NCBI GenBank assembly: GCA_009692425.1
Contig: SHZF01000026.1
Coordinates: 1-53,906 of the forward strand
DNA length: 53,906 nucleotides
Source of the DNA: Myxococcales bacterium
GTDB lineage: Bacteria > Myxococcota_A > UBA9042
Reading direction: 5' to 3'
This document shows, in pieces, positions 1 through 46,454 of the stretch. Made by a program: the position numbers and the translations under genes. The stretch's first letter is position 1, and every line of letters begins with the position of its first letter. The notes under the pieces were generated by a model, which saw nothing but the letters and a program-made list of their open reading frames with translations, did not search any database and had not been told where the DNA came from.

Positions 1-1913
1 TCGACGCGCACGTCGCCCAGACAGGCCTCGCCGCGCACGTCGCCCAGACAGGCCTCGCCGCGCACGTCGCCCAGACAGGCCTCGCCGCGCACGTCGCCCA
101 GACAGGCCTCGCCGCGCACGCTGTCCGCGCCGGTTGCAGTGCGGGCCGAACCCAGCGGCTTGCGCTCTTGGGTGATCAGCACGTCGATGTGGCTGCGCAC
201 ATCGGGCTGCGTATAGAAGTTCTGCTGCACTTCGGCGACCGTCGCGACGTGCTGGACGAGATCGAGCTTTTCGACTTGGTACTGCACGCCATCGTGCAGG
301 TAGACCGCACGCGGATGCGCCTCGCGGTAGACTTGGTAGCGGTCCATCTCGGTGATGGTGCGCTGCGTGCCGCGGTCGACCACCTTGAAGCGGTCGGGAT
401 CGAGCGTGCGCAGGCTGAACTCGCCGGCCGGAAACGGGCCGCCCTGCCAATGCCATGCGCCGTGCACGTCGCGCACTTCGCCACGTTCGGCCAGCACCGG
501 CACCATCTCGCCGAGGTCGGGGAACGTCGCGGCATCGTCAAGGGTCAGCGGCAGTTCGGCCGCCGCCGCGCGCGCGTGCCAGAGTTGGATGGCGAGGTTG
601 TCCGGGTCCACTACGGCACTCTCGGCGGGTTGCCCCACGAGCCAGTCCGGGTTCTGGGCGATGTACTCGTCGATCGGCGAGACGGCCAGCACGACGATGC
701 CATGCGCCACGTTGCCACGCCGCCCAGCCCGGCCCATCTGCTGCCAAAAGGACGCGCGCGAGCCCGGAAAGCCACCTTGCACCACGACTTCGAGCGCGCC
801 GATGTCGATGCCGAGTTCGAGCGCGTTGGTCGTCACGACGCCGAGCAGTCGGCCGTCTTGCAGCGCACGCTCGACCTCGCGCCGTTCGACCGGCGTGTAG
901 CCGCCGCGGTAGCCCGCCAGAAGTGCCGTCTCATCATGGCCGCGGGCATCGCGTGTGCCGTCCGCATCGACGTGGCGCAGCCGATCGCGGGCCTCCTTCA
1001 GCACGATCTCCGTCTCCTTGCGGCTGCGGCAGAACGCGATCGTGCGGTGGCGATGGCGCACGAGCCACGGCACCAGGCGCGCAAGTTCCTCGGTGACGGG
1101 CTTGCGCTGGTCGTCCGACTGCAGCGGCGGCCGCCAGAAGTGGATGACCTTGCCGGCAGACGGCGAGCCGTCCTCATCGAGGAGCCGAAACGGCACCCCG
1201 CACAGGGTCTCGGCGTGCGCCTGGGCATTGGCGATGGTGGCCGACGAACCGAGAAACTGGGGGCGCGAGCCGGCGTGGCGACAAATCCGCAGCAGTCGCC
1301 GCACGACGTTGGCGACATGGGCCCCGAACGCGCCACGATAGCTGTGCAGTTCGTCGATGACGACCCAGCGCACGTGACGGAACAGGTGCGCGTACCCGGG
1401 CCGGCCGTGGTTGGGCAGCAGCGCGGCGTTGAGCATGTCGGGGTTCGTCAGCACGAGTTGGCACCGGTCGCGGATGCGGGTGCGCTCGGCCGGTGGGGTG
1501 TCGCCGTCGTAGACGCCCGCCTCGATGCGGCGCGGCGGACCGTGCCCCGACGTGGCGACGAGGTCGCACAAATCGAGCAGCGCGCGCAGTTGGTCCTGGG
1601 CCAACGCCTTCGTCGGGAACAGCAGGATGGCGCGCACCGTCGGGTCGGTCAGGATCGACTGTAGCAAGGGCAACCAATAGCACAGCGACTTGCCGCTCGC
1701 GGTGCCGGTGGTCACGACGACATTCTGCCGCCCGCCGACTGCCGCGTCGAAGGCCTCGGCCTGGTGGCTGTACAACTGCGCGATGCCGACCGCCCGCAGC
1801 GCGTGGGCCAACGCCGGATGGAGCGCTGGGGGAAAATCGACGACGTGGGCCGGCCGCGCGGGCAGGGTGCGGGTGGCGACGATGCGGTCGGCAAAGGAAC
1901 CGAGGTCGAGCAT
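1..1913 (-). CDS. MrfA/YprA-type DEAD/DEAH-box helicase, partial
   Basis: About 637 codons are visible; the C-terminus lies beyond the left edge. The protein starts at the ATG at 1913 (MLDLGSFADRIVA). The Walker A motif TGTASGKS has its Lys at about residue 75. The DEVH-box variant DELH is at about 187-190, followed by SYRGAFGAHVANVVRRL, which is typical of YprA/MrfA. The C-terminal RecA lobe carries TTNALELGIDIGALE and QQMGRAGRRG. Family members are 3'-5' DNA helicases that usually end in a DUF1998 zinc-binding domain; MrfA acts in repair of mitomycin-type lesions in Bacillus. The DUF1998 part should be outside the window. Near the edge the protein contains at least four copies of a nine-residue repeat (RGEACLGDV). 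It is divergent from the operon at 2213. Family membership is secure; the exact repair role is inferred. Confidence 0.93.
   Translation of the reverse strand, partial: MLDLGSFADRIVATRTLPARPAHVVDFPPALHPALAHALRAVGIAQLYSHQAEAFDAAVGGRQNVVVTTGTASGKSLCYWLPLLQSILTDPTVRAILLFPTKALAQDQLRALLDLCDLVATSGHGPPRRIEAGVYDGDTPPAERTRIRDRCQLVLTNPDMLNAALLPNHGRPGYAHLFRHVRWVVIDELHSYRGAFGAHVANVVRRLLRICRHAGSRPQFLGSSATIANAQAHAETLCGVPFRLLDEDGSPSAGKVIHFWRPPLQSDDQRKPVTEELARLVPWLVRHRHRTIAFCRSRKETEIVLKEARDRLRHVDADGTRDARGHDETALLAGYRGGYTPVERREVERALQDGRLLGVVTTNALELGIDIGALEVVVQGGFPGSRASFWQQMGRAGRRGNVAHGIVVLAVSPIDEYIAQNPDWLVGQPAESAVVDPDNLAIQLWHARAAAAELPLTLDDAATFPDLGEMVPVLAERGEVRDVHGAWHWQGGPFPAGEFSLRTLDPDRFKVVDRGTQRTITEMDRYQVYREAHPRAVYLHDGVQYQVEKLDLVQHVATVAEVQQNFYTQPDVRSHIDVLITQERKPLGSARTATGADSVRGEACLGDVRGEACLGDVRGEACLGDVRGEACLGDVRV
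6..119. repeat. 27-bp tandem repeat inside the helicase gene
   Basis: Four consecutive, apparently identical 27-bp units occupy 6-113, with a partial unit to 119; more may lie beyond the edge. The unit is nine codons long, so the helicase frame is kept. On the minus strand it encodes RGEACLGDV each time. There are no spacers, so this is not a CRISPR array. Confidence 0.95.
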
Positions 1914-1962
1914 GGCGCGCAAGGTACGATGGGACTGAACGGATGTCCAGTGCTTGCGGCGG

Positions 1963-2111
1963 CCAGGATCCACCGGCCAAGCTTCCCCGGCCGCCGAATT
2001 CAGATGCAGTTCTGGGCGACTAGGAGGTTGGCGGTGAAGGCGTACAAAGGGTACGTCGAACCGCCAACCGACGACGGCAACGACGAAATGCGCCGAAGGC
2101 GGCGGATCGGG
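1963..2111 (+). repeat. Dispersed ~149-bp intergenic repeat, copy A
   Basis: This copy aligns without gaps to copy B at 6872-7020, with about 14 differences by eye count. It contains a perfect 9-bp inverted repeat, GGTTGGCGG at 2026-2034 and CCGCCAACC at 2061-2069. Nested in that loop is CGTAC/GTACG (2041-2045 and 2051-2055), and a short GCCG-AAGG-CGGC hairpin lies downstream. It sits between the divergent helicase and lipoprotein genes. The rest of the gap (2112-2212) shows only a short G5/C5 inverted repeat around 2173-2187. No transposase or terminal duplication is visible. It could be a structured RNA, a protein-binding element or a non-autonomous mobile repeat. Confidence 0.85.
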
Positions 2112-2212
2112 GGCGGCCCGTTGGCTCCGCGCCGCCAGACGCGCATACTCCCTCGCGAGCGGAGTCGGTAGGGGGCACGGCCCCCGTGCAACCGGTGCAA
2201 AGGCTGCCTAGA

Positions 2213-6824: not shown

Positions 6825-6871
6825 TCGACCGACCCGGGCCAGTTGCGGTGTTCCGTCGCGGCTGCGTTCGC

Positions 6872-7020
6872 CCAGGATCCACCAGGCAACCTTCCCCGAC
6901 CGCCGAATTCGGATGCAGTTCTAGGTGCCTAGGAGGTTGACAGTGAAGGCGTACACCGGGCACGTCGAACCGCCAACCGACGACGGCAACGACGAAATGC
7001 GCCGAAGGCGGCAGATCGGG
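6872..7020 (+). repeat. Dispersed ~149-bp intergenic repeat, copy B
   Basis: A gapless match to copy A at about 90% by eye, in the same orientation, lying between the FadL-like gene and the Cys-rich lipoprotein gene. The outer stem keeps 7 of 9 pairs and the inner stem 4 of 5, so the hairpin is partly retained. A and B therefore bracket the 2213-6824 operon as direct repeats. The remaining intergenic bases (6825-6871 and 7021-7104) show no further feature. Confidence 0.85.
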
Positions 7021-7104
7021 TGTCGCTGTCCGGGCATTTATCGACCCGCGCGATGGTGGTAGAAGGCGGTTGGCTGCGCAGGGGCGTCGCTGGCGGAGAT
7101 TCGT

Positions 7105-32185: not shown

Positions 32186-33283
32186 TTACAAGTCTACCCT
32201 CACCCGCGCCAACAGATGCTGCAGCATGGCATCCCGAAACGCGTCATTGAACAGCGGCACGTGCAGGGCGCCGTCGACCTGCCACGCTTCGACGTCCGTG
32301 CCCTGCTGGCACGGCTGCCAGCGGGTGCGGTGGGTCTCCTTGCCGAACAGCAAGTCTTCGAAGTTCACATCGGTCAGCTTCTCGCCCTGCGCCGGACAGC
32401 CGTTGCGCTGCACCCAGCCCGCGACCGTGACCGCCGCACTTGGGTATGGGTTGCCGACGATGGCCCCGCCGCCGAACTGGATCACGTTGTCGAGCGTGCC
32501 GTGAATCGCCAGCAGCGACACCGGCTGCGCGGGCTTGCACGCCGTCGCATCCATGTCCGCCGCCCCCGCCAGCGTAGCGATGGCAGTGAGCTTCGGCGCG
32601 ATCTGGCACGCCAGCCGCAGGGCCATGAAGCCGCCGTTGCTGTGGCCGACGAGGTAGACGCGGGTGGGGTCGACGCGGAGCTTCGCGATGGCCTCGTCGA
32701 TGAGTCCCGTCACGTAGGCGACGTCGTCGACCGGGTTCTGGGCGAAGTTGCAGCAAGCCTTCGTCGCATTCCAGAACTGCAGCCCGACCTTGTCTTTCGT
32801 GCCCTCGGGGACGACGGCGACGAAGCCGAGCGTGGTGGCGCGCGCGCTGATGCCGAGGTACCAGTCCTGCTGGGCGCCCGTCGCGCCGAAGCCGTGCAGC
32901 AGCAGCACGAGCGGCCACTTGCTCTGCTGGTCCCAGGCGTGAGGCACCGTGACCTTGGCCGGGCGGGCGCCACCGATCGTCGCGGTGGCGGCGCCAGGCA
33001 GCGGCGCGGGGGCATCTGCAGCGCCAAACCCGTCGGGCAGCACGACGACGGGCGCACCCGCATCGACTCCCATCGCGATGTCGGTGGGCGTCACGACGGC
33101 GGCCGTCGCATCGGTCGCGTCGGCGATGTCCGATTGGGTGCCGGCATCGAGCCCGGCATCGGCCTGGGCGGTCTTGGCACGCGCGGTCACGCCGACCGCC
33201 TCCTTGAGGGGTCGGTCGTCGCAAGCTACCGCGCACGTCGCGAGCAACATCCACGGGCCGAGCCTGGCTTGGCTTCGTCGCAT
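32186..33283 (-). CDS. Secreted polyhydroxybutyrate depolymerase/feruloyl-esterase-like lipoprotein
   Basis: 365 residues from ATG 33283. Lipobox TCAVAC with Cys21, then an Ala/Asp-rich linker. The alpha/beta-hydrolase part begins WPLVLLLHGFGATG; the nucleophile is Ser215 in GHSNGG. VSLLAIHGTLDNVI holds the acid and HVPLFNDAFRDAMLQHL is near the catalytic His. This is the LpqC/CE1 group (PHB depolymerase, acetylxylan or feruloyl esterase). CCNF and paired cysteines suggest disulfides outside the cell. Exact ester unknown. A PhaC-like gene lies elsewhere in the window but no operon link exists. Confidence 0.87.
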   Translation of the reverse strand: MRRSQARLGPWMLLATCAVACDDRPLKEAVGVTARAKTAQADAGLDAGTQSDIADATDATAAVVTPTDIAMGVDAGAPVVVLPDGFGAADAPAPLPGAATATIGGARPAKVTVPHAWDQQSKWPLVLLLHGFGATGAQQDWYLGISARATTLGFVAVVPEGTKDKVGLQFWNATKACCNFAQNPVDDVAYVTGLIDEAIAKLRVDPTRVYLVGHSNGGFMALRLACQIAPKLTAIATLAGAADMDATACKPAQPVSLLAIHGTLDNVIQFGGGAIVGNPYPSAAVTVAGWVQRNGCPAQGEKLTDVNFEDLLFGKETHRTRWQPCQQGTDVEAWQVDGALHVPLFNDAFRDAMLQHLLARVRVDL

Positions 33284-33326
33284 GGGGGCAGCGTAGGGGC
33301 GGGAGGACGGGCCGGCAAGCGGATCT

Positions 33327-33363
33327 GGCGTCCCGGGAAGGTCTTGGGGTGGTGGATTTGGGG
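33327..33363 (-). repeat. Partial dispersed repeat, copy E (inverted)
   Basis: 37 bases on the minus strand match 34408-34444 of copy C with one difference. Only the left box of the element is present. It lies between the esterase and HEAT-lipoprotein genes and is in inverted orientation relative to C. Confidence 0.8.
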
Positions 33364-34407: not shown

Positions 34408-34563
34408 CCCCAAATCCACGACCCCAAGACCTTCCCGGGACGCCGAATTGGGTCCAGATGCTAGGCGGAGCAAGGCATTGGGGCGAAGACGTACTTGGGT
34501 ACGTTGAGCACCAACGCCGCCGCGACAACAACGCAGATGGGCCCAAGGCGGCGGATCCGGGCG
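34408..34563 (+). repeat. Dispersed repeat, diverged copy C
   Basis: Roughly two-thirds similar to copy A by eye over the core, with small gaps. The inner hairpin CGTAC/GTACG and a TTGG/CCAA part of the outer stem are still present, although surrounding bases changed. It lies between the divergent HEAT-lipoprotein and EEP genes. The rest of the 34320-34601 gap shows nothing else. Confidence 0.7.
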
Positions 34564-34601
34564 GCCCTTGACACTGGGCGCCGCGGCGGCAGTCTGCTGG
34601 C

Positions 34602-37331: not shown

Positions 37332-38160
37332 GACCGCGGCGGCAATGGGGCAGTCGGCGTAACGCTCAAGACGAAGTCTGCACCGGTCGTCGGCGTGGCC
37401 TCGACGTACGTATTCGTCGCGGGGAGTTTGACCCGCTCAGGGCAAGGAAAGATAGACAGACGCGAAATGACAAGAGAATGCCCCCGCCGCCGGCACAACG
37501 CACCGGCGAGGCGTTCGGCGGGGCCCCTGCGAACCGTCCCGCGGCGATCGCCGGTGAGACGGGTTCGAACTGCCGGACATGGGCTTGAGCGCTCCCGATC
37601 GGCGTCTCACCTTGAGCCGCTGGACGCGAGTGAGACGGCGTGGATGGGGCGGTGAGACGGTGGCAGCTGGGGCGAAGGCGCGTGATTTCAGGGCTTCGGG
37701 AATTGGCACGGATCCTGCATGTTGGTTTCCCGCCGCGCGGACCGACGTGCGGTGGCTGCCAGCGGACGCGCGCTCCGGAGGTGGTCGGGTTGCTGCCGGG
37801 CGCGGGGGTCGAGAGGCTCCCGGGCCGAAGGAAGGGCGGGCTCGGCGAAAGCCGAGAGGTCCCGCAAAGGTGGTGATCCGTCTGGAGCAATCTGGACGGT
37901 CGGCGGGGAGGGCTTTGCAGATGGGGCAGGAGGGCCCCGTCGAGGGGCGGACTGCGGCTCATCGGGCCTTGCCTCGAACGCCGAATTCGGATGCAGTTCT
38001 CTGCGTTCAGGAGGTTGGCGCTCAACGCGTACACTGGGTCCGTCGAACCACCAACCGGCGACACCAACGACGAAATGCGCCGAAGGCGGCGGAACGGGGG
38101 CAAACCCTCCCGTGAACGTGGCGTGGCCACCCGCCATCGCCCCCGGCACCGAACGGGCAG
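37332..38160. other. Gene-poor stretch with no convincing coding sequence
   Basis: More than 800 bases in which no frame on either strand has family-like sequence. Several overlapping open frames exist but look like GC-driven artefacts. The only recognisable content is copy D of the dispersed repeat at 37979-38098. Confidence 0.6.
37979..38098 (+). repeat. Dispersed repeat, copy D
   Basis: Gapless match of about 120 bases to the right four-fifths of copy B, with roughly 20 differences by eye. The left box is replaced by unrelated sequence. The outer and inner stems are partly kept. It sits just downstream (on the minus strand) of the fasciclin remnant. Confidence 0.85.
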
Positions 38161-46072: not shown

Positions 46073-46095
46073 ATGATTGAAAACAAATGGACAAG

Positions 46096-46454
46096 TGGAG
46101 GCGCCGGGAGTCGAACCCGGGTCCGAAAACGCTCAGCGTGACCGTCTACGTGCGTATCCGCCCAGTTTCAGACGCTTCCCAGCCGCCTGGACGGCGGGCT
46201 GCACAGGAGCGCGCCCGGAATTGTCTCGCCCGCGACCGTCCGGACGGCAGTCGCGAGCCAGCCCACCTGAATGACGGGATTCGGGCGCAGCAGGCGCCGC
46301 CCGGTCCCGTCGCTGGTTACTTTTTGGAGTTACGCAGCGAGAGCAAGTTCAACGTTGTCGTTGGCACTTGAGGATTGCCCATTTTTGACGCGGCCATGGG
46401 CGCCGCGGCACGCAAGCCGCGCGTTGCTGTCCCCGTCGAAGCCGTTTCGCCCCC
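46096..46454 (-). ncRNA. ssrA: Transfer-messenger RNA (tmRNA)
   Basis: The 5' end GGGGGCG at 46454 pairs with CGCCTCC at 46097-46103 to form the tRNA-like acceptor. The T-arm TTCGACTCCCGG lies before it and CCA is not encoded. GGCTTCGACGGGGA near the 5' end is the conserved tmRNA opening. The tag frame at 46365-46330 reads ANDNVELALAA followed by TAA, matching the family ending ALAA that ClpXP recognises. tmRNA rescues stalled ribosomes and tags the nascent chains. The length is about 359 nucleotides, single-piece form. Confidence 0.96.

Follow-up and report, generated by a model that had tools for sequence, protein, structure and literature searches.

The window analyzed in this study, a 53,906-nt stretch of a single contig, harbors copies of a 150-bp intergenic element that we interpret as a MITE of an IS1380-family transposon, mobilized in trans and placed by promoters in a fixed register. 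On the sequence evidence, we assign this reading a probability of about 0.8. Its observed basis comprises sharp element ends, target duplications, empty sites, ends in common with an insertion sequence (IS), a conserved hairpin, and a constant register at pre-existing promoters. The original prediction had described a 149-bp element of no known class. The repeat is real, with a true length of 150 bp owing to one extra G at the 3′ end. Taken together, its 4-bp duplications, its inverted ends, their match to those of an IS1380-type transposon, and the existence of empty sites identify it as a MITE derived from this family.

Pairwise alignment of the copies in the window yielded 90.6% identity between A and B over 149 bp and 83.3% between B and D over 120 bp, the former gap-free, close to the ungapped values of about 90% and 83% given beforehand. 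Copy C, rightly described as diverged, shows 72.5% identity to A in a 142-column alignment that contains 12 gap positions. E had also been listed as a diverged copy; it is indeed related to the repeat, but represents a left-end remnant only, i.e., an inverted piece of approximately 36 to 38 nt from the start of a C-type copy, 97% complementary to the beginning of C. E and C each correspond to a copy positioned upstream of a promoter. The possibility that they form the paired ends of a single transposon was rejected, as the ends face away from each other and are separated by a HEAT-repeat gene. Since the −35 box starts 4 bp past the duplication in copy A and 2 bp past it in copy C, the window copies are not the clearest examples of the 9-bp rule found across the genomes. 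The coordinates of all features are listed in Table 1. In addition, a 27-bp tandem repeat was noted at the contig start (window positions 1 to 135), within a gene at positions 3 to 1913 (minus strand) that matches DEAD/DEAH helicases.

Table 1. Element copies and associated features in the window (positions in the 53,906-nt stretch)
Feature	Position	Strand	Remark
Copy A, full-length (150 bp), main subfamily	1963..2112	+	Ends common to >30 copies; model score 183.8 bits
Left target-site duplication of A, GCGG	1959..1962	+	Equals 2113-2116
Right target-site duplication of A, GCGG	2113..2116	+	Read from sequence
Promoter-like TTGGCT-N17-CATACT, downstream of A	2121..2149	+	−35 starts 4 bp past duplication, not the usual 9
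Left terminal repeat of A, CCAGGATCCACC	1963..1974	+	Pattern CCMRRATYCACC: 72 matches in the genome (G000), 0 for the reversed-pattern control
Right terminal repeat of A, reverse complement CCCCGATCCGCC	2101..2112	-	Equivalent end in G017 is the IS end CCGCGATCCCCC
Apical stem-loop of A	2027..2069	+	Compensatory changes between subfamilies
Copy B, full length	6872..7021	+	Possible duplication TCGC (6868-6871 / 7023-7026); weak promoter
Copy D	37952..38098	+	Left part degenerate; neither clear promoter nor duplication
Copy C, diverged subfamily	34409..34561	+	CGGC on either side; −35 TTGACA nearby at 34568
E, solo left-end remnant (36 nt)	33327..33362	-	Immediately before a promoter
Promoter-like TTGCCG-N17-TACGCT beside E	33290..33318	-	Leads to ATG at 33283 of an esterase-like gene on the minus strand

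A BLAST search with the 149-bp copy A detected 42 places in the genome to which the window belongs (G000; 4.94 Mb, 137 contigs, 96% complete), including 30 at ≥83% identity, and a covariance model search of the same genome returned about 90 to 100 copies. The dispersal proposed originally is thus supported genome-wide and far exceeds chance, with some 90 copies, those in the window included, and sharp boundaries common to them. With this copy number, these boundaries, and the strong covariation described below, the refuting outcome named in the original prediction did not occur. By covariance model, 92 copies were counted in G000, 126 or more in G017 (a “Myxococcales bacterium” MAG of the same family from deep Lake Baikal), 35 in G009, 12 in G006, and 0 to 6 in other family members. 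Outside the family, only 1 of 30 genomes of the same class gave matches, three in number and all weak. The element thus appears to be essentially confined to one family of the Myxococcota.

Several features of the copies are signs of mobility. The element is bounded sharply by CCMRRATYCACC…GGATCGGGG, with imperfect terminal inverted repeats; copies start with CCAGGATCCACC and end with GGCGGATCGGGG, and their flanks are unrelated. A 4-bp duplication was found in 12 of 32 G000 copies, compared to 0.16 expected from mismatched flank pairs, in 34 of 60 copies across three sets, and in 83 of 116 G017 copies, mostly with the same left terminus. Furthermore, for seven G009 insertions the two flanks were joined and searched for in congeners, and at three loci (L145, L144, and L135) the congeners align through the junction without the element. 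The same promoter is present at these empty sites, a few bases downstream, which indicates that it predates the insertion. Tandem copies with one target duplication between them also occur, e.g., element-ACGT-element-ACGT-CTTCAGCCC-TTGCCC. Solo left ends just before promoters are common (L153, L157, L160, L166, L168, and E in the window); the hairpin would make copies prone to deletion, and such remnants would follow from loss of the long palindrome. Integron attC arrays were considered and rejected, since the copies are dispersed, occur in both orientations, and carry target duplications. As a separate observation, two element 3′ ends separated by 153 bp are located close to a contig end in another genome (G003:C64, 77441 to 77641), which suggests tandem copies breaking the assembly.

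The right flank of the element repeatedly carries a sigma70-type promoter directed away from it, while control regions (the left flank or sequence 300 bp further on) are flat or nearly so. To describe the target, 113 insertions with exact duplications were aligned (22 from G000, 10 from G009, and 81 from G017), with promoters called by consensus match. Strong signals after the duplication are limited to TTG(A/C)C at positions +9 to +13 and TA...T at +32 to +37; G is weakly preferred within the duplication, and the other flank positions are near background. A TTG starts at +9 in 50 of the 113 sites, at +8 and +10 in five each, and at about 2 per position elsewhere (50 versus 2.1 per position; binomial P of about 1e-55). 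The peak is present in each of four subsets, and by genome it comprises 10 of 22 sites in G000, 5 of 10 in G009, and 35 of 81 in G017. The spacer between −35 and −10 at the targets measures 17 bp in 30 cases, 18 bp in 10, and 16 bp in 6, and about half of the sites lack a recognizable −35 box at +9. In G017, the right end is on the promoter side in approximately 56 copies and the left end in approximately 10, the latter little above chance. Of 101 copies, 83 have a co-oriented downstream gene, the orientation of the upstream gene is mixed, and no shared function was found among the downstream genes sampled. The promoter lies outside the element and is kept at empty sites; hence, this is not a promoter-bringing MITE of the Correia type. 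As the element is located upstream of promoters, a small RNA read together with the downstream gene is not supported.

A divergent IS1380-family transposase is intact in the relative G014 (526 amino acids in the frame used), with scores of 197.6 bits against NF033539 (cutoff, 180) and 96.7 bits against PF13701; G012 has a broken version of it and G017 has it in pieces. On the transposase-proximal side, the G017 IS ends in CCGCGATCCCCC, which corresponds to the MITE right end in exact reverse complement; its distal end, CCAAGATTCC..., belongs to the MITE left type. A MITE copy is located next to the IS of G014. The IS1380-family transposon of these relatives is the likely mobilizer of the MITE. 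No intact transposase was detected in G000 (96% complete, E ≤ 0.001) or in G009, with only remnants of about 250 bp in G000, which would be compatible with MITE status if the copies are old. Three loci in G000 are IS derived and have the left end CCCAAATCCACC (L162, L163, and L170, in G000:C52, C57, and C85); L162 and L163, each about 250 bp long, have a common segment that resembles the transposase promoter region of the IS. These three loci and the G017 IS show a 4-bp duplication followed by 9 bp to the −35 box, and the G014 IS shows a register of 4 plus 10. The end facing the promoter is opposite in the two forms, being the right end in the MITE and the left-type end in the IS. Two ordinary IS1380 elements from the same bacterial family, L350 (G015:C854) and L349 (G016:C36), have ends of CCCGGAT...TCAC and CTAG duplications (one copy each). 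About 700 kb of G017 contained no long element bounded by MITE ends, and a comparison with solved structures gave no convincing relative of the transposase.

Folding predicts one long hairpin of approximately 127 nt that begins near nt 26 and extends to the 3′ end; when consensus sequences are folded singly, the energies are −76 to −86 kcal/mol. The nested stem-loop noticed at the outset, in copy A a 9-bp stem (GGTTGGCGGT/ACCGCCAACC) enclosing the 5-bp stem CGTAC/GTACG, exists exactly as described but is merely the tip of this hairpin. Five subfamilies that were co-aligned and then folded separately gave the same architecture. When 44 copies representing three genera were aligned, the structure comprised 44 pairs with 90.6% of cells paired and contained 293 double (compensatory) changes, compared to 98 ± 7 after shuffling and at most 70 in slid controls. 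The apical stem sequence differs entirely between subfamilies while the hairpin shape is retained across genera, so that the selection on structure suspected originally is supported at the level of structural conservation. Because the element is mobile, this conservation may reflect selection for an RNA, but equally for a DNA hairpin or for pairing of the ends. The hairpin probably helps to bring both ends together.

A second mobile sequence, unrelated to the element, is located inside the hairpin loop of L065 (approximately 1576 to 1728, G000:C45) and L179 (G000:C13, approximately 101.5 to 101.75 kb), and the two inserts have 116 bp in common at 95% identity. In G017, the apex is replaced by another palindromic repeat, ...CTCAACTGTCC...GCTCCTAGG, in L191, L203, L221, L230, L247, and L252, and other copies, e.g., L219, L249, and L259, contain TGTCGCTCGC decamers in tandem that give rise to length variants of the element.

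In the proposed mechanism, an IS1380-type transposase supplied in trans would recognize the terminal sequences, presented jointly by the hairpin, and would cut the target with a 4-bp stagger. The promoter would position the transposition complex such that the duplication comes to lie 9 bp upstream of the −35 box, at about −46 to −49. Since −35 and −10 appear to be read together across a spacer of 16 to 18 bp, RNA polymerase bound to the promoter is the likeliest reader, and it may act as a tether for the complex via sigma region 4 or the alpha-CTD, a hypothesis that would be comparable to the tethering of Ty1 to Pol III. Tentatively, and at close to even odds, we picture a transposon lineage, present mainly as hairpin MITEs, that targets its insertions via the promoter-bound holoenzyme 9 bp upstream of −35 and would parallel Ty1/Ty3 targeting in bacteria. 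That MITE and IS turn opposite ends to the promoter is not accounted for by a simple tether.

The main competing explanation, which we consider unlikely but well ahead of the others, is that the transposase itself reads the −35 and −10 hexamers in the DNA without RNA polymerase. The conserved target features are sequences, and the two ordinary IS1380 relatives with CTAG duplications illustrate that enzymes of this family can read sequence; however, the transposase would need to recognize boxes as far as 41 bp from its cut across a spacer that varies by 2 to 3 bp, a task performed by the sigma70 holoenzyme. It is improbable that the register arose by random or intergenic insertion followed by selection, with copies at about −50 surviving because they help or spare the promoter. 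An element upstream of promoters might act on them, genic copies would be purged, and about half of the copies show no promoter at +9, yet tolerance alone predicts a broad upstream range and not a peak one base wide. Moreover, the register is the same for IS and MITE with different ends turned toward the promoter, and second insertions occur in tandem.

A further alternative, a cis-regulatory module or enhancer that serves a regulon and was duplicated and kept for its function at a fixed distance from promoters, would accord with that distance, the orientation bias, and the conserved dyad. We regard it as very improbable given the target duplications, the congeners with empty sites, the range from 0 to more than 126 copies among relatives, and the unrelated downstream genes. 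The least credible reading, to which we give hardly any weight, takes the repeat for a REPIN-like sequence mobilized by a Y1 (RAYT) transposase or for a structured RNA gene that stands alone. Both would share the hairpin shape and intergenic position, and REPINs are likewise hairpins dispersed between genes, but they depend on a different enzyme that is not expected to generate 4-bp duplications, and no Y1 transposase was found in the copy-bearing genomes G009, G013, G016, and G017. As for an RNA gene, the Rfam search of the window matched only the tmRNA gene (46093 to 46454, minus strand) and not the element.

The MITE reading agrees with the IS1380 family (ISEcp1 and ISPme1; NF033539/PF13701) in the transposase match, ends beginning with CC, and a 4-bp duplication. 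It differs in that the two ordinary IS1380 elements found here duplicate CTAG, whereas in the MITE/IS lineage the duplicated 4-mers are nearly random and their distance to the promoter is fixed. ISEcp1 and ISPme1 are known for one-ended mobilization and outward promoters, not for promoter targeting (PMC9330008). Palindromic bacterial MITEs, including ERIC, Correia/NEMIS, RUP, and the Rickettsia palindromic elements, have been reviewed, with no mention of IS1380-derived MITEs (PMC10969869). They are likewise intergenic, hairpin forming, nonautonomous, and about 100 to 190 bp long, and Correia elements lie mostly just upstream of genes. However, Correia and several others carry their own promoters, whereas here a pre-existing promoter sets the insertion point to the base.

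The nearest parallel in behavior is that of yeast Ty1 with Pol III (PMC10050235). Ty1 and Ty3 also have a set place of insertion upstream of promoters, which is attributed to contact with the transcription machinery. They are eukaryotic retrotransposons acting via Pol III or its factors, whereas the element described here is a DNA transposon at bacterial promoters and the contact is hypothetical. A literature search found no description of base-precise promoter targeting by a bacterial transposon; it covered subscription journals only to a small extent and is weak evidence of novelty.

For yeast retrotransposons, it is established that start regions are targeted via the transcription machinery. 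If such targeting is confirmed for the lineage described here, it would constitute a natural system that inserts DNA base-precisely beside promoters without a guide RNA. It would also represent a route by which a transposon reaches high copy number with little harm and, in uncultured Myxococcota, would provide a genome-wide marker of real promoters.
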